This document shows positions 859 through 13,808 of a DNA stretch of 32,967 nt, one piece after another. The position numbers were made by a program, and so were the translations under genes. The DNA is taken from positions 1 through 32,967 of the forward strand of contig CAJCCR010000323.1 of the NCBI GenBank assembly GCA_903960945.1, given 5' to 3'. Origin of the DNA: an uncultured Planctomycetaceae bacterium. Its GTDB lineage: Bacteria > Planctomycetota > Planctomycetia > Gemmatales > Gemmataceae. How positions within the stretch are numbered: position 1 is the stretch's first letter; every line of letters starts with the position of its first letter. Under the pieces are notes generated by a model. The model saw only the letters and a list, made by a program, of their open reading frames with translations, did not search any database and was not told the origin of the DNA.

Positions 859-2802
859 ATGAGTACCATTCCAGATAATGCTTTTCCTGAAGAATCCAAA
901 AAAAGCAAGACCTTGCTGGTTTCTATCATTGCAGGAATCATCTTGTTTGCTGGTACCTTGCTTTTCTTCACCTTTAGTTCAAACCCCGTGAAAAAAGATT
1001 CCGACAAGATTAACACTGCAAACGCCCCCGAAGATTCCTCGTTAAAATCTGCTCAGGAATTGCTCACCAACGATAATGATTTGAACTCTTGCAAAACAGC
1101 CTTGCAACAAATCAATAATCATCTTGCAACTCATCCCAACGAAAAACCAGCAACTTTCTCGCAGGAAAAAAGAGAGATTTACTCTAAGTTTGGCATGAAT
1201 GATCAGCAATTTAATGAAATTGATAGCCCCACCTTTACCCTTCTTGACCCGCACTATCTTGAAGAGCGATTGATGTTTCGGGATATCGCCCGTTTTCTTG
1301 AACCGCCCGCTATAGGTGTCAAACAAGTCAAAGCCTCTATCAGCGAAGTTTCTACTCATGCATTTATGTGGGTGGTTCGGGAAATGCGACTCACACCGCG
1401 ATCGAACAACGCAGTTCCTCCCATCTATGCCTTGCGTAGAGGTTGGGGCAGTAGTTATGAACGCTCTCTTACTTTTCTTGCATTGCTCGAACAGTTTCTT
1501 TATGTGGGAGAAAAACTCGAACAACCAGCGGGATGTATGCTTCTTCTCCCAGGCAAAGATCCCAATGCTCCTCCTAGAATTTGGTTGGGAGTTGTCGATG
1601 AGTCAGGCAATGATCTTTACTTGTTTGATCCTATTTTGGGTATCCCTCTTCCCGGGGGAAAAGATGGTAAGCCATTGCTTCTTACCGAATTAAAAGCAGA
1701 TCCGAAAAAAATTAGAGTCCTCGATTCTGAACAAGCCCCTTACGATGTGCAACCCGAACAAATTTTGAAAATCGCACCCTTTATCGTACCTTCCCTTTCT
1801 TCCCTTTCACCTCGCATGAAACTTCTCGAAGATAAATATCTTCCTTCAGGCGCCAAGGCCAGACTTTCTACTGATCTGGAATCGTTGATCATGAAAATCG
1901 AAAAAGCTTGTAGGCCATCGCTTGGTGCCTCATCTAAAGTTTTTTTGATGAATCAAGCAGTTGAATCTCTTCGCATGTTTCTATCTGCAGGTAATGGCGG
2001 ATTCGCCTCTCCACAAATCCTTCAAGCTTATCAAATCGAATTAATTCCTCAGACCGCAATACCCCCACAACTTCAAAAAGTCCCTCACCCTATCATTCTT
2101 GAAAACATAGGTAATATGCTTTCTAGGCCATTTATCAATTCTGCGCTTGAACCCAAACTGCCCCGAGATCAAATGCTTCATGCCCGCTATGCAAAAGCGG
2201 TGCCTGATCTTGTTCGCGAGGGCGATGAACTCCGAATTCAACTGCGTGGTGCAGAAACAGATCCTAATCTTCCCCAGCGAATCAACAACTGGATGGAAGC
2301 TGCAAAGCAAGTTTTTACTAGCTTCGACACAATCATGCAAAACAAGGATAAAACCCCTGAAGACCTTACGATGATTAATCTCGAAATCCGAACCCTATTC
2401 CAAAAAGGTGAAAAAGACCTTGGAATGATGATCGCTGGCTCCATAGGCAGGCCAAGAGGCGAACAAATTTCCTGGCTGCTCGCACTTTGTAAACACGAGC
2501 TCGCAGAACAACAACAACGCAGATTCGATATCCAATCCAAATCCACTGAACCAACCCAATTGGCCCAACAAGATAGACTCAATAAGTGGAAGGATTGCGA
2601 AAGCGCTTGGCGCAGATATTTAGAGGAATTCCCCGTAGGCGCAGGCGCACCCCATGGCAAGCTCCTTTGGGGCTACGCTTTAGCAAACCTAGGCGATAAA
2701 GAAGCTGCAATCAATGCTTGGCAAGATGTTTCTAGGCCGATGGCAACTCAGGAAAAAGCCGCCAGACTCTTCCTCGCCAAATCCCTCAAAGATAAGAAAT
2801 AA
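859..2802 (+). CDS. Membrane-anchored protein with transglutaminase-like region and C-terminal TPR-like segment
   Basis: N-terminal TM helix (LLVSIIAGIILFAGTLLFFTF); WVVREMRL...RRGWGSSYERSLTFLALLEQ...YLFDPILGIPLPG resembles a transglutaminase-like core; C-terminal helical repeat (LLWGYALANLGDKEAAINAWQDV). Confidence 0.6.
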   Translation: MSTIPDNAFPEESKKSKTLLVSIIAGIILFAGTLLFFTFSSNPVKKDSDKINTANAPEDSSLKSAQELLTNDNDLNSCKTALQQINNHLATHPNEKPATFSQEKREIYSKFGMNDQQFNEIDSPTFTLLDPHYLEERLMFRDIARFLEPPAIGVKQVKASISEVSTHAFMWVVREMRLTPRSNNAVPPIYALRRGWGSSYERSLTFLALLEQFLYVGEKLEQPAGCMLLLPGKDPNAPPRIWLGVVDESGNDLYLFDPILGIPLPGGKDGKPLLLTELKADPKKIRVLDSEQAPYDVQPEQILKIAPFIVPSLSSLSPRMKLLEDKYLPSGAKARLSTDLESLIMKIEKACRPSLGASSKVFLMNQAVESLRMFLSAGNGGFASPQILQAYQIELIPQTAIPPQLQKVPHPIILENIGNMLSRPFINSALEPKLPRDQMLHARYAKAVPDLVREGDELRIQLRGAETDPNLPQRINNWMEAAKQVFTSFDTIMQNKDKTPEDLTMINLEIRTLFQKGEKDLGMMIAGSIGRPRGEQISWLLALCKHELAEQQQRRFDIQSKSTEPTQLAQQDRLNKWKDCESAWRRYLEEFPVGAGAPHGKLLWGYALANLGDKEAAINAWQDVSRPMATQEKAARLFLAKSLKDKK

Positions 2803-2887: not shown

Positions 2888-3084
2888 GCCCCGAAGGGGT
2901 GAAATGTGATAGCCCGGGGTGGAGCGGAGCGCAACCCCGGGTAACAATCGAGCCCTCAAATAAGCCCTGAAAGGGCGGAATAATCAGCTACCGAGGTCTT
3001 TCGCCCTTTCAGGGATGGGGGGTTTTATGGCGGCTTTTTCCCAGGGCGTTGCCCTGGGCTATCTCATTTCGCCCTTTCAGGGCG
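2888..3084. repeat. Cluster of GC-rich palindromes (REP-like intergenic element)
   Basis: CCCC-GAA-GGGG (2889-2899); CCCGGGGT...ACCCCGGG (2913-2941); GCCCTGAAAGGGCG (2964-2977) and its reverse-complement copies at 3002-3015 and 3070-3084; CCCAGGGC-GTT-GCCCTGGG (3040-3058). Confidence 0.75.
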
Positions 3085-3176
3085 AATGCAGGTGTACTCA
3101 AGGATTTTCCCTGCCTCTGCGTCTTCGCGGTAAAAGTTCTTAGTTTTGCCTCGAAATCAGAATTAGTTGGCATCTT

Positions 3177-3204
3177 TTGCAGAATTAGATTAAAAAATTA
3201 CTAG
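3177..3204 (+). promoter_or_regulatory. Possible sigma70-like promoter for the 28-aa ORF
   Basis: TTGCAG, 16-nt spacer, TACTAG, about 45 nt upstream of the ATG at 3251; weak consensus match. Confidence 0.25.
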
Positions 3205-3250
3205 AATTACTCTTGGGTCAACAAGGCATTTAAACAAGGAATGATTAAGC

Positions 3251-3337
3251 ATGGCACGTACTTTGAAGCTGAAGACTAGGAAAAAAAGAAACAACATTAA
3301 GAGAAAACGCCAACGCTTTTTGAAAAAGGATCATTAA
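3251..3337 (+). CDS. 28-aa highly basic mini-protein MARTLKLKTRKKRNNIKRKRQRFLKKDH
   Basis: Complete ATG-TAA ORF below the cutoff of the supplied ORF track; AAGGA at 3236-3240 as SD; 14/28 residues Lys/Arg; strong intrinsic terminator 35 nt downstream. Confidence 0.65.
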   Translation: MARTLKLKTRKKRNNIKRKRQRFLKKDH

Positions 3338-3372
3338 TCCTTAGCGCAATCTTCGTTAGCGCCACGATCTTT

Positions 3373-3412
3373 AAAAAGGATCATCCTCGCATTTGACAGG
3401 ATGATCCTTTTT
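3373..3412 (+). terminator. Rho-independent terminator
   Basis: Perfect 15-bp stem AAAAAGGATCATCCT / AGGATGATCCTTTTT with 10-nt loop CGCATTTGAC, followed by TATTTAAA. Confidence 0.85.
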
Positions 3413-3438
3413 TATTTAAAGCCCAGTTATTAATTTGA

Positions 3439-3690
3439 ATGGGTAGCACTTCTAATTTCCGCCTGCTCCGCATTATCAACAGTTCAGGCCAGGTGATTGA
3501 CGAATTCTTCTCTGGTGGGGTTCGAGTTGGCCTTGGGGATGTCAATGGTGATGGATTAATAGATTTGGTCACCGGCGCAGGCCCTAGTGGTGGGCCCAAT
3601 GTGAAAGTCTTCGGCGGCTTGCAACTCGACCTGTTGCTAAGCTACTTCGCTGGCAACCCTGAAGATGAAGACGGCGTGTTTGTAGCCTAA
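3439..3690 (+). pseudogene. Orphan FG-GAP C-terminal module (gene-tail remnant or short standalone ORF)
   Basis: GGVRVGLGDVNGDGLIDLVTGAGPSGGPNVKVFGGLQLDLLLSYFAGNPEDEDGVFVA* aligns to, and stops at the same point as, the C-terminus of the 3314-aa protein (GGVRVAVNDGNGDGIADIITGAGPGGGPQVKVFSFPALDLLFSFYSGEPTNSGGVYVG*). Confidence 0.6.
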
Positions 3691-3863: not shown

Positions 3864-6800
3864 ATGAAGTTATTTTCACTAAGAACATGGGATGTTTTCG
3901 ACCGTTTTTTTCAATTGGAATCCATAAAGAATACCCCTCACAGGAAAAAGTCATTAAGGATGGCTTTAGAGCTTCTGGAACCCCGCTGGAATCCAACAGG
4001 CAACATGACAACCTTCCAGTTTGATATCCCAGCAAGTGTGGCCAATCTTGGAGTACAAGACGGGGTTTATTCCAATACTGACCATATTTATTTGGCTGGT
4101 ACGCTTGGTCAACAAACCTTTCAAACTATACCATCAGCGCCGGCAACCGGAAGTTCGGAGCAATTGCAACTTATTACTTTGGTGTCACCTGGTAGCTATC
4201 AGACTTCACAATCCGTAAGCCTTGCTATTCCTTTTCCTGCAAGTACCTTTCCAAATAATGGCGAATTTCGGGGCGGAGAATTAATTGTTTTTGTTGGCGA
4301 TGTAGTTAATGGGTTGCCAATTACACCAGGTAGTAATTCGGTGGGTGCGCCCACGGCAGCAGCAAATCCCTCCACTAATATTGCCCCAGATAATTACGCC
4401 CAGATCGAATTAACTTATATCCCCCAAGGGAATGGCGCTGGGTTAGATATTGATAGTTCTTCGGTGGATAATGTGGGATTCCCTTTTACCTTGACCTACC
4501 CTACTTCAGGCTCTGGTTCTGCTAGTTTTCCTATTAATCCGTTGGGTATCACTCTTAGTCAAAACAACCTTTACAGTACATTTAACACTCTTGTCGAAAA
4601 CGGAACTATTCCGCAGGAATTTCAGCAGTCTTCCACTTTTAACCAACAGCAGGATTCCAGTAATATTCAGATCGTAGCTCCGGGGGATATTCTTTCCCAT
4701 AACGCCACCGCACCAATTATTAATTCGGTGAACCAGGTGTCAACACTAGGCACACTGGATGCAAATTACAATTACTTTTATGTCGTTACTGCCTACAGCG
4801 ATAATGTGATTGAATCTTATAACCTCAATACTTCAACAGGTACTGTTACCGATGGTAGTAGTGGTGTTCGGGGTGAGACCCTGTTGAGCAATTTCTTTAA
4901 CTCAGGCATTTTGGCCTCTGGCAAAAGCAACCAAATCAACTGGAGTCCCTACCTAGACCCTAATACGGCTGGTTACAATATTTATCGTTTCAGTACGCCG
5001 GATTCAACATTTACTCCCAATTCGGATACGGTCTATAACCTTATTGCTCAGATTCCAAATAATTCGAGCAACTCGGTTTCTGTTCCATTTAATGTTCAAT
5101 CTTTTTTAACTGGAGCCACAACTTTAACACCTAGTTCCACAAATGGATTGAGCGTAGGGATGAAGATTTCCGGCGTTGGTATTGCGCCAAACACCACCAT
5201 ACAAGCGATTGGTAGTAATGGACAAATCACCATTTCCATCCGGGCAAGCGGGTCAGGTGGTGGATCTGGAGTTGCAAATTCCCTGACCGCCACTTCCTAT
5301 CAATTTTTGGACACAGGTTCTATTCCGCAGGCAAAACAAATTTCAGGCAGCACCGCAAGTAGTTATGGCTTCAACCCGTTGAGTGAATATTACACGGAAG
5401 AATTGCTAGAATTTTTTAGCCATTATCTTACTCCAAATTCTTTTGCGCTTACCCGTTCGAATGTTGAATGGGCTGGTAATACGGTTTTATATGCTCCTGC
5501 TGGGTCTTGGAACATCAGCAATTCCAACTACATGGCTTTGCAATTGACTGCCCAAAATGGAGATGGGGGCACCATTGCTGCTGGCGATGTATTGAACGTC
5601 TATGCTCCGTTTTTCCAAACCAATACCCGCTATGTAACAATTAATAATAATCCATTGCCGCAAATGCCATCATGGCTTTCCTTGGCTAATGTAAACGGTG
5701 TGCAAGGAATAGGAAATCTCTATGAATCACCTTCACAGATGGTTTTTGGTTGTGATTCTGTATTTGCTTCAAATGGATTGGATCCGGATATAGCTGGTGC
5801 AACCTCTGCTTTGGGCACTTATCTTGGTTCTATCGAAGATTCGATTGCTGCTGCTTTCAATCGTGGAATAGCTTCTAATTTTAGCATTCAGCCCGACAAC
5901 TGGGCTAGTTTTCCGGCCATTTCCGGAAATCCAATTGTTTCTACCTCGGGATCAAGCCAAATAACAAATGAGGTAACTTATTATTACGCTGTTACTGCCA
6001 TCAATGTGCTTGGAGAATCCACGCCTAGTCTAATAGTTCCAGCCACTTTGCTTCCAGGGCAGGTTGCCACCATCAATTGGACGCAAAATCCCAATCCTGT
6101 TCCACCAAGCTTGAGTTTTAATATTTACCGGGGAACTACTCCGGACATTAGCCAGATGGGACTGCTTCTAAATGTGGGCGGAAATACCCTGACATTAACC
6201 GATAACGGTTCTGCTTTATCAAATCCAAGCACCCACCCACCGTTTCAGTATTATGCAGCTAACAGTACTTCGAATTGGTATTCCTATTTCACCCAAACCA
6301 ATAGTTCGGTAGATCCTGTAAATGGTGTCAGTATCAATGGGCTTTCTTATGGTTTTGCCTATGCCGACCAGGGCGGTCTTTCCACCAATGCATTTTTCAG
6401 CACAGGGAATTTTCCCGCGAGCATTGGTGTGCATATGGGTTTGATATCTGGGCCAGAGTTTATTACCCAGCTTCTGGCGGATGCAACTCAAAGTCAGTCC
6501 TATTCCCAGCAAATTCAAGTCAGTGGCAATGTAAGTAATCTTAGTTATTCCATAACCAGTGGGTCATTACCGGTAGGTTTAACATTAAACGCCAATACAG
6601 GCATCATTAGTGGCACCCTTAATCCTACGGCAGCCACTTCCACCTTTACGATTCAGGTAAGCGGTAACGAAGATAATTCACCCTTTGCACCTATATCCCG
6701 TTTGTTTTCGCTGACAGTTAATAGTTCGCAGCCTGCATCACAGCCCCTAACAATTTCTGGGTTGACAGTTCCTACTTCAGGGCCAAGTTATCTAACGCTT

Positions 6801-9800
6801 GAGCCCGTTTCCCTTGGGATAGGTGCTGGTTCAGCCAGCCAGTCTTATACACGAACGATATCAGTTTCAGGGGGCACGGGGCCGTATACTCTTGCACCAA
6901 CTACGAATATTGGGACTGGGCAAGTCCTTTATACGCAGTTTCCTATAAATACAATTACAACAATTAATTCTGTCAATAATGTTTTTACACTTACCACAGT
7001 CAATCCTTTGGCTCTTAGTGCCGGCCAGACTAGCATTACTTTTGAAATAATGGATTCTGCCACGCCAACCCCAAATATCATTACCTTTCAATTGCAAACT
7101 AATATTTTGCCTGGTCTAACCATTACTGTTCCATCAACACCCACTGCTTATGTTGGCATTCCTTATTATCAAAAGCTTAAAACGAACCAAAATCCAACAC
7201 AGGTTCCAGCATACCCTTGGGGAGAATTGACTTATTCCTTGGCAACAGGTTCCAGTCTACCCCCTGGTCTCACCCTAACACCATGGGGTGTCATTCAAGG
7301 CACGCCAACTACTTCTTCGGGTAGTCCGTTTAGCTATACGGTTCAGGTAACGAATCAGGTGACAGGTGTTACGGAAACTGTTACTGCCAGCTTGGCTATG
7401 AATGTGCTATCAAACAGCAGTTATACTGCCCTTGCTGTTACCAATCCGGGAACTTTGCTACCTGTTTTGGGAACTATCTACAACTCTGGCAGTCCATTGG
7501 CAACCATCGCAACGACCGGGGGATCGGGCGGGGTTCAGCTTGAGTTGATTAATGGTCAACTGCCTGCTGGGTTGAGTTTTAATGGGACACAAATTATTGG
7601 GTCTGTTTCTTCACCGGGTGGTGATTTTCCGGTGACCTTCCGTGCAATTGATATTCAGGGGCACATTGCTTTTCAGAATGTCACCATTTCTGTGACATCT
7701 ATAAGCCCACCTTCCACCCAAAGCGGTAGTGTACCAATCCCTTACGATGTTTATCGGGCTACGAGTTCACTCATCATTCCCGGTACCGGTTTTAATGCCA
7801 CCACGCCCGCCAACAATGTATTGACTGTGAGTTCAATCAACACAACCATTCAAAACTCAACAACATTGAATCAGTTGGTGGCCAACCTGAGCAGCATTCT
7901 GCCAGCTTCAGGAACAATCAATTTAAATCTGGCAGTTAATAGCGGTTCGCCAATTACTTCGAATGGTTATGCCAATATCCGCTCCAATCCCACTATTACA
8001 GTAAGCACGGAAAATCTGGCGCAAAATTCCAGTACTCTCCTCATTAGCGGAACCAATTTTGGCACGGGAAATTCCGGAACTGAACCTTTTGGCGGTTATA
8101 GATATTTCATCAATGCCACGAATGTGCCCAACGAAGCCCAGTTAATTTTGACAGACAGTTTAAATAATGTCATTCCATATACCGGTATAGGAAATGGAAA
8201 CTATTCCACCACCATGGAAATTTCTGGGATTAATCTTTCCAATGCTGCTGCAGGTGCTTTGAATGCAAAATTGGTGGTGAATGGGCAAACGATTTTGGGA
8301 CCCACTCCGGTAGGAACCATTGTTGCAGCTAATGCCCCCCCAACGATTAACTTTAACCAGAATAACACCACTTTTCTGACAAACACCGGCCCAACAACTT
8401 ACACGGTGCTAATTACAGGTAGTGGTTTTCAACCTTTTTCCGGTTCATCCGTTACAGTTGATTTAAAAAATGATTCATTCCAGAATATTACGGTTACCAA
8501 TACCCAAGTACTAAATGACAATTCTTTGCTTGTAACATTTTCTGGAACTCTGCCCACCAATCTGTTTGCCCGTATTTTTGTGAATGGTGTTGGAAGCGCT
8601 GCCAATACTACAGATCAGACACTGAATCATTACCCGAGTGGATATGTTCAGTTCGCTTCATTAAACAGTAATGCCGGAGAAATTAATTCAAATCCAGCCA
8701 TAGCGATTAATGGTACGCAATTCATTATTTATGGATATGGATTTGTGCCTTCTTCACTAAATTCAAGTGCCCCAACTAGTGTAAGTAGCTTGCAATATCT
8801 TGTTCCAGACCATGGTTTTTCAAGCATTATTTCAAGCAATTACACCTCGGTTTGTTTGACGCCAAATATTATTTTGGTAACACTTATTAATGGTTCAATT
8901 TCAACCCTTGCTCCGGGCGGGAGCCAGATTCATGCCGTGCTACAAAATCCATCACAAGGCGGTACAAATGGGTTTTTGCTATTTAATGTTGCACCAACAA
9001 TAAACCAAATCCAGCCAACCATAACACCCTACACCGGGTCTTCCCCAAATCCGATTTCCAATAATGGATACACCCTTGCCATTAATGGATCCGATTTTGG
9101 CACTGCTGTAAGTTCTACCGGATCTGTCGGGAACACCTTTGTGCAGTTGTATTTGGGTAATTCCACTACTACGCCTCTTTTCAGCTTTATAAACAGCTTT
9201 TTCAGTACCGCACAAGGTTCAATGAATAATGGAGCAGGTGTGCAGGATGTCGTCATAAACGGCACTACGGCCATGACGGTGAATCTTGCAGGCCCCTTGC
9301 CTGCGGGCGATATCTACGCAGTAGTTACCACGCAGGGAGTATCCAGTTCGCTAACCAAAGTGGCAACCATAGCAAGTTCGGCTTCAACGCCTACCATCAC
9401 AAGTAGCACCCAGAAGATTTCCCTTAACCCTACGCGGATTATAATCAACGGAACTAATTTTGACACTAATGGCAGCAATTTGGTCACTCTTAGTCAGGGA
9501 ACAGTAGTTTCTGTAACTGCCGTTTCTTCTACTCAAATTGTAGCAGTTGTAGATGGTATCACCACCACAGGGTCGTTAAGTGCTTCGGTCGTAGTGAATG
9601 GGGTATCTAGTGGAAACCCTGTTCAGGTTGCTGATGTGGTTGCGGTTGGGCCGGATGTCCAATTTAGTATTGGCACTCTTTCCCCAAGTGCAAACAAGCT
9701 GGTGATAACCGGTTCCAACTTCAGCACCACCAGTGCGAACAACACTGTAACGCTTTATTCTCAGGCGGGTGCGATTGCAAATGCTGTAGCGAGTGTAGTG

Positions 9801-12800
9801 GCCAATAGTGCAACCCAGTTAACAGTAACCCTTGCCCCAAGCTTACTTCAGAATATTCCAGCCGGGCAGTTATATGCTACGGTAAGTGTTAGCAGTACAT
9901 TGAGTGACACGGTTCAGGTTGCCTATGTGACCTCCAGTACATTACCCGCCCCCACCGTTACTACCAATACAGTCAATCTTTCCCAAAATGCATCGACCTT
10001 GGTGATTAATGGCACAAATTTCGACCCAACGGGAACAAATGTTTTAACCCTGACAGATTCCGGCAGTGCCGCTGTGCCTTATGCATCCGTGGTGGTGAAT
10101 TCGCCGACCCAAATCACGGTAAGTTTTAGCTCTGCAATTAGTATTTCAGGTACTCTTTTTGCACAGGTCGAAACGAATGGTGTAACAAGTAATCGCGCTC
10201 AGGTTGCAACAGTTGTTACATCAACCGTACCAACCATCACGCAATCCATTAGTACAATTGCAGCCAACGCAACCAGTCTTACCATTTTTGGTTCTGGTTT
10301 TGACACATCAAGTGGTGGAAGCAATCATCTTGTACTTAGCTCCGGAACTCTCACTTTAGTGCAGGTGATTAGCAGCAGCCAGTTGATCGCTACATTGAAC
10401 CCAGTAGGTGGTTTGTTGGACTCCGGCATACTTACAGCAACGGTAACCGTTAATGGCGAGGGTGCAGGGCCTACTCAGGTAGCCACGGTAAATGCGGTGC
10501 CAGTGATTACGCCTAGCTCCGCCTTTTTGCCAGCTAACGCTTCTACTTTGTTCATTTATGGAACTGGGTTTAGCACCACAACCGGCAATAATACCGCAGC
10601 ATTATCCAGTGGTTCTGGAACAGTGACAGGCGCTACATCTACAAAATTGACAGTAACAATGGTTACTGCCCCGACGGCTGGCAATCTTACTGCAACTGTG
10701 GTATCCAGCGGCGTTTCCAGCCAACCCGTAGTCATCAATTCTGTTCAGCCATTCATTACGCAAAACACATTAGTGATAGATCAGCAAACCGCCACTACGA
10801 TTACCATTAATGGTGTTGGATTTGATTCAGACAAGACCAAGAACAGCGTGGTGCTTTCTTCAGGGGTTGGTGTAGTGACTGCGGCAACATCAACCCAGTT
10901 GACTGTGCAGTTTTCTTCGCAGCCTGTGTTGGGCAACTTGCTCGCCACGGTAACTAGCAATGGAGTTGCAAGCACTCAAACCCAGATTGCCACTGTGGGC
11001 ACTAAAAAGATAACACTTGCCACTCCGGCTGCCGGGGCTGTCGATGGGCAAGCCTTTGCCACACAGCCGGTCATTACCTTTTTGGATGCTTCCGGCCAGA
11101 GAATACAAAGCGACAGTACAAGTGTGGTAACCATGGCGGTAAGTACGGGTGCAACTACTGTTGGCACAGTTACAGCCACTGCGGTAAATGGCCAAGCTAC
11201 CTTCGCCACTGTGGGGATTGATGGAACCCCTAGCAGCCAATACACCTTGACCTTTACTTCGCCTAGTTTCCAGACAACTTCGCAATTAATCACCATTTCA
11301 GGAAATACTGCCACTCAGCTTGGTTTTTCTCAGCAGGCGATTGGTGCCAATAGCGGACAGGCATTCACCACCCAGCCGATCATTACGATTTTGGATTCTC
11401 AGGGGCACCTTGTTAGCAATGATAATACCAGTCTGGTATCTATGTCGGTAAGTGATGGTGCAACCACGGTTGGAACCATTACTTTGACGGCGGTAAATGG
11501 CGTGGTGAACTTCACCAATGCAGGTATTTCTGGAACTAGTGGGATTCCATATACCCTTACATTCAGTTCTGGTTCGCTGACACCAGCCACCCAAAGCATT
11601 ACGATCAATCCCGGAGCGCCAACTCAGGTAAGCCTTTTTACGCCTGCTGCTGGGGCGGTTGATAACACTGCTTTTACTACACAACCCGTGCTTCGTATTC
11701 TGGATCATTTCGGGCAGATTGTAACTTCAGATAATTTCACTCAGGTAACGATATCTGTAAATAATAGTGGCGCTTTGATTGGTACTTTTACCAAAACGGC
11801 GGTGAACGGAGTGGTTGCCTTTACCGATGTCGGGATTGATGGAGTATCTGGTGCAAACTACACTCTTACCTATGCAGCAAATGGTTTGACATCTGCACAG
11901 CAATCAATCCAGCTAACTCCCAATGATAATCCAACTAAGTTGGGAATTGTCACTGCTGCAAGTGGGTCCACTAGCGGCCAGGCGTTTACCACTCAGCCTG
12001 TTATTTCCATTCAGAATAATGCAGGTTCGGTTGTGCCATCCAGCGCAATTGTAACCATGACCGTTTCAAACGGTGCTCAAGTAATTGGAGTATCAACGGC
12101 AACGGCTTCCAATGGTGTGGCTACCTTTGGGAATGTTGGAATCAGTGGCGCGACAGGAATTACCTACACCCTGACATTCTCATCAAATGGCCTCACATCT
12201 GTTACCCAGCCTGTTGTGATCAGCCCTTTGGTTCCTTCGAAAATAGGTTTTTCCGTTCAAGCTTCTGGTGCATCAGATGCTAGGCCATTTGTCGTTCAAC
12301 CCGTACTGCTGATTCAAAATTCCGCTGGGCAGACTGTAACCACAGATAATACTACTACGATAACCATGAATGTCAGCACCGGCGCAACCACCATTGGAAC
12401 CATCACCCAAACTGCGGTGAATGGTACCGTTACCTTTAACAATGCTGGAATTGATGGATTGCCGAACACCAATTACACGCTGACCTTTACATCCAGCGGG
12501 CTGACGCCAGCAACCCAACCAATCTATCTGAATCCCGGAGTGGGCACTCATCTGAATCTTTCAACTCTGGCTGCTGGTGCGGTAATCGCAAGCCCCTTCA
12601 CAACCCAGCCTGTTTTGCAGATACTGGATGCGTTTAATCAGGTGGTGACAAGCGACAACAACACTATAGTAAGCATTCAGGTAACCTCAGGCGCCACCAT
12701 TATTGGGTCTGCAACCGCAACCGCTAGCAATGGAATTGTGAATTTCTCGAACAGCGGTTTAACAGGTATTGCAGGGAATTACACACTTAGCTTTGTTTCT

Positions 12801-13808
12801 GCGCCGTTGCTTCCTGCCAACCAGTCGATAACCTTGTCTGTTCCAACGCCAACACCAACACCAACACCAACACCAACACCTAGCCCAACAGCGCCGTTGG
12901 TGGTAGGAACGCCACCACCTTCGTCTGGTGGCTCTAGCACTGTTACTCTTTACGACCCTGTAACCGGCGAACCCACAGGCACAGCGGTTCCTTTCCCCGG
13001 ATTCAGCGGCCCGATCAAAGTTGTTTCAGGCGACTTCAATGGCGATGGCGTTGCAGATATCTTCGCAGCAGCAGGATTCGGCGGCGGCCCAGCTATCGCA
13101 ATCCTTAATTCTCAAACCGGCGAAGTCATTGAATCCTTCTTCGCTTTTGATCCAACCTTTACAGGCGGGGTCTTCATCGCGGTACAAGATGTCAACGGTG
13201 ATGGCATCTTAGACATCATTGCAGGTGCAGGCCCTGGCGGTGGCCCAGAAGTTCGTATCTTCGATGGTAGAACCCTTAATGTTCTTCGATCCTTCTATGC
13301 CTATGACCAATCCTTCTCCGGTGGCGTTAGCGTTGCAACCATCGACTTCAACCATGATGGCATTTTAGATTTAGTTACCGGCGCAGGCCCAGGTGGCGCA
13401 CCTCATGTAAAAATATTCGATGGTGCTACGAACGCAATCCTTAGCCAATGGTATGCCTATCCTGCATCCTTTACCGGTGGAGTTTTTGTCGCAGCAGGAG
13501 ATATCGGAAACGATGGCAACATCGAAGTAGTTACCGGCGCTGGCCCTAGCGGTGCACCTGTTGTTGCAGTCTGGGATCCTTACACTGGCGCATTACTTTC
13601 CCAGTTCATGGCTTACGCAGAATCCTTTACCGGAGGCGTTCGTGTTGCAGTCAACGATGGCAATGGCGATGGCATTGCAGACATTATTACTGGCGCTGGC
13701 CCAGGCGGTGGCCCACAAGTTAAAGTCTTTAGCTTCCCAGCTTTGGATCTATTGTTCTCCTTCTATAGCGGCGAACCAACCAACTCCGGCGGCGTTTATG
13801 TCGGCTAA
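3864..13808 (+). CDS. Giant modular, presumably extracellular protein (3314 aa): N-terminal GH64-like region with Fn3-like insertions, He_PIG-like and IPT/TIG-like repeats, six ~103-aa Ig-like repeats, Pro-Thr linker, five FG-GAP repeats
   Basis: Single uninterrupted ORF; N-terminal LELLEPRWNPTGN; repeated 'LVINGTNFD' IPT-like motifs; 'GQAFTTQPVI' repeats; (PT)n; DxNGDG FG-GAP motifs. Confidence 0.85.
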   Translation: MKLFSLRTWDVFDRFFQLESIKNTPHRKKSLRMALELLEPRWNPTGNMTTFQFDIPASVANLGVQDGVYSNTDHIYLAGTLGQQTFQTIPSAPATGSSEQLQLITLVSPGSYQTSQSVSLAIPFPASTFPNNGEFRGGELIVFVGDVVNGLPITPGSNSVGAPTAAANPSTNIAPDNYAQIELTYIPQGNGAGLDIDSSSVDNVGFPFTLTYPTSGSGSASFPINPLGITLSQNNLYSTFNTLVENGTIPQEFQQSSTFNQQQDSSNIQIVAPGDILSHNATAPIINSVNQVSTLGTLDANYNYFYVVTAYSDNVIESYNLNTSTGTVTDGSSGVRGETLLSNFFNSGILASGKSNQINWSPYLDPNTAGYNIYRFSTPDSTFTPNSDTVYNLIAQIPNNSSNSVSVPFNVQSFLTGATTLTPSSTNGLSVGMKISGVGIAPNTTIQAIGSNGQITISIRASGSGGGSGVANSLTATSYQFLDTGSIPQAKQISGSTASSYGFNPLSEYYTEELLEFFSHYLTPNSFALTRSNVEWAGNTVLYAPAGSWNISNSNYMALQLTAQNGDGGTIAAGDVLNVYAPFFQTNTRYVTINNNPLPQMPSWLSLANVNGVQGIGNLYESPSQMVFGCDSVFASNGLDPDIAGATSALGTYLGSIEDSIAAAFNRGIASNFSIQPDNWASFPAISGNPIVSTSGSSQITNEVTYYYAVTAINVLGESTPSLIVPATLLPGQVATINWTQNPNPVPPSLSFNIYRGTTPDISQMGLLLNVGGNTLTLTDNGSALSNPSTHPPFQYYAANSTSNWYSYFTQTNSSVDPVNGVSINGLSYGFAYADQGGLSTNAFFSTGNFPASIGVHMGLISGPEFITQLLADATQSQSYSQQIQVSGNVSNLSYSITSGSLPVGLTLNANTGIISGTLNPTAATSTFTIQVSGNEDNSPFAPISRLFSLTVNSSQPASQPLTISGLTVPTSGPSYLTLEPVSLGIGAGSASQSYTRTISVSGGTGPYTLAPTTNIGTGQVLYTQFPINTITTINSVNNVFTLTTVNPLALSAGQTSITFEIMDSATPTPNIITFQLQTNILPGLTITVPSTPTAYVGIPYYQKLKTNQNPTQVPAYPWGELTYSLATGSSLPPGLTLTPWGVIQGTPTTSSGSPFSYTVQVTNQVTGVTETVTASLAMNVLSNSSYTALAVTNPGTLLPVLGTIYNSGSPLATIATTGGSGGVQLELINGQLPAGLSFNGTQIIGSVSSPGGDFPVTFRAIDIQGHIAFQNVTISVTSISPPSTQSGSVPIPYDVYRATSSLIIPGTGFNATTPANNVLTVSSINTTIQNSTTLNQLVANLSSILPASGTINLNLAVNSGSPITSNGYANIRSNPTITVSTENLAQNSSTLLISGTNFGTGNSGTEPFGGYRYFINATNVPNEAQLILTDSLNNVIPYTGIGNGNYSTTMEISGINLSNAAAGALNAKLVVNGQTILGPTPVGTIVAANAPPTINFNQNNTTFLTNTGPTTYTVLITGSGFQPFSGSSVTVDLKNDSFQNITVTNTQVLNDNSLLVTFSGTLPTNLFARIFVNGVGSAANTTDQTLNHYPSGYVQFASLNSNAGEINSNPAIAINGTQFIIYGYGFVPSSLNSSAPTSVSSLQYLVPDHGFSSIISSNYTSVCLTPNIILVTLINGSISTLAPGGSQIHAVLQNPSQGGTNGFLLFNVAPTINQIQPTITPYTGSSPNPISNNGYTLAINGSDFGTAVSSTGSVGNTFVQLYLGNSTTTPLFSFINSFFSTAQGSMNNGAGVQDVVINGTTAMTVNLAGPLPAGDIYAVVTTQGVSSSLTKVATIASSASTPTITSSTQKISLNPTRIIINGTNFDTNGSNLVTLSQGTVVSVTAVSSTQIVAVVDGITTTGSLSASVVVNGVSSGNPVQVADVVAVGPDVQFSIGTLSPSANKLVITGSNFSTTSANNTVTLYSQAGAIANAVASVVANSATQLTVTLAPSLLQNIPAGQLYATVSVSSTLSDTVQVAYVTSSTLPAPTVTTNTVNLSQNASTLVINGTNFDPTGTNVLTLTDSGSAAVPYASVVVNSPTQITVSFSSAISISGTLFAQVETNGVTSNRAQVATVVTSTVPTITQSISTIAANATSLTIFGSGFDTSSGGSNHLVLSSGTLTLVQVISSSQLIATLNPVGGLLDSGILTATVTVNGEGAGPTQVATVNAVPVITPSSAFLPANASTLFIYGTGFSTTTGNNTAALSSGSGTVTGATSTKLTVTMVTAPTAGNLTATVVSSGVSSQPVVINSVQPFITQNTLVIDQQTATTITINGVGFDSDKTKNSVVLSSGVGVVTAATSTQLTVQFSSQPVLGNLLATVTSNGVASTQTQIATVGTKKITLATPAAGAVDGQAFATQPVITFLDASGQRIQSDSTSVVTMAVSTGATTVGTVTATAVNGQATFATVGIDGTPSSQYTLTFTSPSFQTTSQLITISGNTATQLGFSQQAIGANSGQAFTTQPIITILDSQGHLVSNDNTSLVSMSVSDGATTVGTITLTAVNGVVNFTNAGISGTSGIPYTLTFSSGSLTPATQSITINPGAPTQVSLFTPAAGAVDNTAFTTQPVLRILDHFGQIVTSDNFTQVTISVNNSGALIGTFTKTAVNGVVAFTDVGIDGVSGANYTLTYAANGLTSAQQSIQLTPNDNPTKLGIVTAASGSTSGQAFTTQPVISIQNNAGSVVPSSAIVTMTVSNGAQVIGVSTATASNGVATFGNVGISGATGITYTLTFSSNGLTSVTQPVVISPLVPSKIGFSVQASGASDARPFVVQPVLLIQNSAGQTVTTDNTTTITMNVSTGATTIGTITQTAVNGTVTFNNAGIDGLPNTNYTLTFTSSGLTPATQPIYLNPGVGTHLNLSTLAAGAVIASPFTTQPVLQILDAFNQVVTSDNNTIVSIQVTSGATIIGSATATASNGIVNFSNSGLTGIAGNYTLSFVSAPLLPANQSITLSVPTPTPTPTPTPTPSPTAPLVVGTPPPSSGGSSTVTLYDPVTGEPTGTAVPFPGFSGPIKVVSGDFNGDGVADIFAAAGFGGGPAIAILNSQTGEVIESFFAFDPTFTGGVFIAVQDVNGDGILDIIAGAGPGGGPEVRIFDGRTLNVLRSFYAYDQSFSGGVSVATIDFNHDGILDLVTGAGPGGAPHVKIFDGATNAILSQWYAYPASFTGGVFVAAGDIGNDGNIEVVTGAGPSGAPVVAVWDPYTGALLSQFMAYAESFTGGVRVAVNDGNGDGIADIITGAGPGGGPQVKVFSFPALDLLFSFYSGEPTNSGGVYVG
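11001..12840 (+). repeat. Six tandem ~103-aa Ig-like repeats within the giant protein
   Basis: Recurring 'GQAFTTQPVI.ILD..GQ.V.SDN...V.M.VS.GAT.IGT.T.TAVNG...F.N.GI.G..G..YTLTFTS' starting near 11001, 11301, 11611, 11926, 12226 and 12536. Confidence 0.85.
12843..12878 (+). repeat. In-frame hexanucleotide tandem repeat (CCAACR)6 encoding a Pro-Thr linker
   Basis: CCAACG followed by five CCAACA units; protein VPTPTPTPTPTPTPSPTAPL. Confidence 0.9.

Follow-up and report, generated by a model that had tools for sequence, protein, structure and literature searches.

A short open reading frame (ORF) of extreme composition in a planctomycete contig raises two questions, namely whether it is a gene and, if so, what its product might do. 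The ORF lies on the plus strand of a 32,967-nucleotide stretch of DNA (the window; contig C323 of a 4.67-Mb genome) and runs from an ATG at 3251 to a TAA ending at 3337, stop included. Its 28-aa product, MARTLKLKTRKKRNNIKRKRQRFLKKDH, contains 14 Lys or Arg residues and one acidic residue, giving a net charge of +13 and a pI of about 12. The preliminary description had reported a complete 28-aa ORF with 50% Lys/Arg, and this reading holds. Such an ORF is far outside chance, since 200 simulated windows (Markov-1) yielded none that reached both 25 aa and 50% Lys/Arg; the second most basic ORF in the window itself has 35%.

The ORF was compared across seven genomes of the genus (G000–G006), the window's own genome (G000) included, and was found in all six congeneric species in which the locus is assembled. 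Three of these (G001, G003, and G005) encode a protein identical to that of the window, and every difference between the genes is synonymous. The version in the more distant G004, MAHTLKRKTRIKRQNIKRKRQRFLKKDR, shows 85% identity to the window protein, and the two genes differ at 20 nucleotides, distributed 1:4:15 over the three codon positions, so that 15 of the 20 changes fall at third positions. The plus frame retains 23 of the 28 residues and is the best conserved by far, the other five frames all keeping fewer. Five amino-acid changes were observed where 12.1 would be expected at random (random-substitution test, p about 5e-5). This pattern of substitution indicates that purifying selection acts on the amino acids of the protein and leaves synonymous change free, and the ORF is, on these comparisons, almost certainly a translated gene under selection. 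In G002 (locus L046, contig C143), the contig stops within the gene; its version as far as the contig end, MARTLKLTTKKKKNNIKRERQR, carries four changes in 22 aa, including K19E, which may reflect relaxed selection or else a sequence error at the end of the contig. No match to the gene was obtained in the seventh species, G006, because the contig breaks off within the upstream gene, leaving the locus unassembled there.

We examined the signals surrounding the gene. A plausible Shine–Dalgarno sequence had been proposed, and an AAGGA is indeed present at 3236–3240 (plus strand), 10 nt before the ATG; AAGG(A/G) is retained in G004, although a 4-nt indel separates it from the start codon. Farther upstream, a block at 3167–3195 (plus strand) consisting of TTGGCA (3167–3172), a 17-nt spacer, and TTAAAA (3190–3195) reads as a putative sigma-70-like promoter and is preceded by an AT-rich stretch at 3154–3166. 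A generic promoter scan left this block unflagged. The segment AAATCAGAATTAGTTGGCATCTTT (3154–3177) has 22 of 24 bases in common with G004, and the flanking sequence has diverged. Downstream, an intrinsic terminator is predicted at 3373–3418 (plus strand), beginning within 36 nt of the ORF. Its arms, 3373–3387 and 3398–3412, form a perfect 15-bp stem, six T follow in a row, and the fold has −20.5 kcal/mol (z = −7.1), in agreement with the near-perfect terminator described earlier. The position of the terminator is kept while its sequence has changed, since G004 has a different stem, of 13 bp, at the matching place. The conserved unit around the gene spans about 210 nt, with the promoter-like block and the terminator included. 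With this terminator after it, the conserved promoter-like block before it, and the upstream gene ending at 2802, we infer, with good support, that the gene forms its own transcription unit, as had been suggested. Conservation of the frame in relatives had been proposed as a check on the locus: the frame is kept, the third-position bias is strong, and both the Shine–Dalgarno sequence and the terminator position are conserved, so that the check speaks for a gene.

A 210-nt unit bounded by promoter-like and terminator elements could also specify a small RNA in which the ORF is incidental. This explanation is highly improbable given the 15 of 20 differences at third positions, the conserved Shine–Dalgarno sequence, the conservation of the frame in a distant genus (G026, described below), and the lack of any Rfam match over 3251–3337. 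A second RNA-based explanation is that the ORF encodes a leader peptide, with translation of its Lys/Arg-rich codons controlling termination downstream and hence the next gene. A short ORF of this composition with a terminator within 36 nt would suit such an attenuator, as would the end of the ORF (3320–3334): 14 of its 15 bases recur in the left arm of the terminator (3370–3384), and a 12-base complementarity to the right arm makes an alternative pairing possible. However, this repeat is kept in four close species and missing from G004, and a role of this kind is at odds with selection that acts at the amino-acid level and leaves synonymous sites free to vary. A leader peptide is, moreover, unlikely because the genes downstream differ among G000, G004, G005, and G026; we therefore strongly disfavour the attenuator.

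The gene for the 647-aa protein (859–2802, plus strand) is a syntenic neighbor in the genus and lies outside the conserved unit; the order kdsA, 647-aa gene, micro-protein gene is the same in G001, G003, and G004, and in G002 as judged by the same flank. Several other elements occur around the locus. An Rfam Acido-Lenti-1 RNA (RF01687) matches at 3040–3084 (plus strand) with 43.6 bits, upstream of the micro-protein gene, and lies within a cluster of GCCCTTTCAGGGC palindromes at 2964–2981, 2999–3014, and 3066–3083. This palindrome cluster looks like a REP-type element, and the congeneric loci that were aligned do not show it. On the other side, an 83-aa FG-GAP-like ORF at 3439–3690 (plus strand) resembles repeats of a 3314-aa surface protein at 3864–13808 (57% over 61 aa) and is probably a decayed fragment. 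In G005 (locus L033, contig C154), three tandem genes for a protein of about 400 aa beginning MAHKLFSL, 73–75% identical to each other, lie directly downstream of the micro-protein gene, at 1.5–5.3 kb.

A homologue outside the genus was found in G026, which belongs to a distant genus of Gemmataceae. Its 32-aa protein, MAHSTKRKTQRKRNNIKRRRAIKSERRKNVAA, is encoded by a separate gene at an unrelated genomic place, with AGGAG before the ATG, a promoter-like TTGACG-N16-TAGGAT upstream, and flanking genes that we read from their sequences as a WD40-repeat gene and a kinase-like gene. An HMM built from the genus alone recovered it (E = 2e-4 in a search space the size of a genome), and its alignment gave z = 9.5, a score reached by none of 20,000 shuffles. 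An exact pattern in degenerate codons, in the design of which the G026 sequence took part, matched only the genus and G026 among 84,980 species genomes, and the relatives it recovered are planctomycete metagenome-assembled genomes (MAGs). No convincing further homologue emerged when 398 genomes of the class were searched with two mismatches or 102 genomes of the order with three, nor from profile searches of the order and phylum, and viral contigs yielded no match. Weak matches in other planctomycetes (G054, G063, G036, G099, G101, G085, G086, G730, and others) were rejected as chance, because the core was missing or the match lay inside an unrelated frame, as established by reading them or as judged from the matched bases.

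Among about 100 genomes of the order, the gene was found in two genera only, and the earlier term "lineage-specific" is apt for a gene of one genus and a second, distant genus of Gemmataceae. So scattered a distribution speaks against the protein being essential to ribosomes throughout the family. It points to an accessory factor, to a gene invented recently and then transferred or repeatedly lost, or to relatives elsewhere that have diverged too far to be recognized; the last may apply because short queries limit sensitivity.

Searches for known relatives of the protein gave no match in Pfam, NCBIfam, or PHROGs, and a profile search of PDB chains returned no ribosomal protein at E values of 10 or less. 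The only PDB sequence matches, with profile and single sequences, were MnmG and a bZIP protein, which we regard as chance. AlphaFold modeled the G026 protein as a single helix (residues 3–31, mean pLDDT 90), and Foldseek found no structural match. A helix is predicted almost by default for Lys/Arg-rich peptides, and a single basic helix of bS22 size is weakly diagnostic. The preliminary description had not recognized the protein as bS22, Thx, or bL37, and with no profile or structure match, and no similarity to bS22, eL41, or Thx beyond composition, this judgment stands. The micro-protein gene is previously undescribed.

From its size, charge, and predicted helix, the micro-protein probably binds RNA; that it is associated with the ribosome, one of the two roles suggested earlier, is a more tentative proposal, about which we are somewhat short of evenly divided. 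The best explanation that we can offer, advanced with similar reserve and by analogy, is an accessory ribosome-associated helical micro-protein with a bS22/eL41-like action. The separately transcribed gene would give rise to a highly cationic protein of 28 aa (32 aa in G026), which would fold into one alpha helix upon RNA binding; the helix would then insert in an rRNA groove and neutralize phosphate, as bS22, eL41, and mS38 do, so that the protein would act as an accessory, lineage-restricted ribosome-associated factor. The Lys/Arg composition, the length, the helix, and the failure to detect bS22 or bTHX in the Gemmatales searched count in favor of a ribosomal reading. Against it count the lack of any family, PDB-sequence, or Foldseek match, a similarity to bS22 and eL41 no greater than that of composition-matched shuffles, the location of the gene away from ribosomal genes, the 85% identity to the G004 protein, which resembles that of the neighboring 647-aa protein (82.5%) and is exceeded by kdsA (95%), and the restriction to two genera when about 100 genomes of the order were searched, which is odd for a ribosomal protein. 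We consider it unlikely that the product is a hitherto unknown ribosomal protein of some Gemmataceae, a non-homologous helix filling the bS22/eL41 pocket or another rRNA pocket.

The protein might instead bind nucleic acid away from the ribosome, either as a protamine-like nucleoid peptide or as an RNA chaperone or regulator, rich in arginine, whose targets would be mRNA or sRNA. A net charge of +13 on 28 aa and a predicted helix would fit this function, and the patchy distribution with differing genomic places in the two genera is more readily understood for an accessory factor than for a ribosomal protein. Nothing in the protein, however, singles out DNA or any particular RNA, and no homologue has such a function; we regard this as a less likely alternative. 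Free bS22 and bL37 peptides have antimicrobial activity (PMC10085706), which raises the thought of a cationic antimicrobial or secreted peptide. The micro-protein has no hydrophobic stretch of the signal-peptide kind, a very low hydrophobicity, and a modest hydrophobic moment (0.06–0.36), and no evident immunity or export genes adjoin its gene, making this role very improbable.

For the accessory ribosome-associated reading, the known small basic proteins provide the points of comparison. Since composition-controlled tests do not establish homology, we file the micro-protein in none of bS22, eL41, TIGR04137, or bTHX. TIGR04137, a small basic protein (Chlam_Ver_rRNA) with no assigned function to our knowledge, matched in 57 of 59 relatives, 55 of them above cut-off, and the window's genome is among them; its gene there (G000:C107:7436-7582; L078, L089) is at a contig edge. 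The micro-protein could be a diverged short paralogue that retains only the basic N-terminal half of this family, which is likewise basic and planctomycete and has a similar LKRK-RN-ER-like spacing. The alignment SLKRK...RN[VI]...ER[IF] gave p values of 0.01–0.12 in pairwise shuffles and 0.045 jointly, a weak hint, uncorrected for the several families tried. However, the micro-protein has 28–32 aa compared with about 70 and does not contain the PFGLPKVRV core, no NCBIfam match was obtained at the 50-bit cut-off of the family profile, HMM scores were near zero, and the hhalign probability was 0.3%; such a paralogue is improbable. Weak short TIGR04137 matches, for example in G025, were set aside as not being relatives of the micro-protein.

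bTHX is also tiny and basic, and it is ribosomal, but the micro-protein shares no motif or score with it (shuffles p = 0.75–0.97; no Pfam match). Its profile, PF17070, gave no match over the cut-off in those Gemmatales genomes that were searched; bTHX occurs in some other Planctomycetia. The actinobacterial bL37 offers a precedent for a tiny, basic, lineage-specific ribosomal protein, whereas the micro-protein matches no solved ribosomal chain. bS22, bL37, and bL38 were discovered through unexplained cryo-EM density. A specific peptide is now defined to seek in Gemmataceae ribosomes. It is a candidate by prediction, for whose translation the evolutionary evidence is clean, from a group without detected bS22 or bTHX, and it belongs to an undescribed family of micro-proteins, easily overlooked by annotation pipelines.

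The closest parallel is with bS22, eL41, and mS38, each a basic helix lying between h27, h44, and h45 of the 16S rRNA and the 50S subunit and contacting 23S rRNA (PMC10618245, PMC10085706). PF08213 (bS22/AURKAIP1-COX24, mS38) was above cut-off in none of the 59 relatives, with no Pfam match for the micro-protein, and similarity to bS22 beyond composition was absent (pairwise shuffles p = 0.29–0.61; joint 0.57 and 0.30). Apparent bS22 or eL41 motifs were dropped as no better than composition-controlled shuffles; an eL41-like RKKR..[LI]KRKR gave p = 0.05 for the window protein, 0.23 and 0.41 for relatives, and 0.096 jointly, a weak hint. The core of the micro-protein is NIKR, whereas the bS22/eL41 group has THKRKK or KKKHRK. 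Lys/Arg makes up 44–50% of the micro-protein and 50–65% of bS22/eL41, with positively charged residues given as 55–65% in bS22/eL41 (PMC10085706) and Lys/Arg as 61% in Borrelia bS22 (PMC10618245). In length, the 28–32 aa of the micro-protein fall beside the 28–33 aa of bS22 and the 25–33 aa of bS22 and eL41 together. Such short genes may escape annotation, bS22 itself can be unannotated and hard to find, and a human eL41 query missed the bS22 of C. acnes (PMC10618245, PMC10085706). The micro-protein resembles bS22 and eL41, themselves often unannotated, as a tiny basic product of a small gene with a predicted single helix, and if a non-homologous helix did fill their pocket, the same slot would have been taken through independent inventions in an order without detectable bS22 or bTHX.
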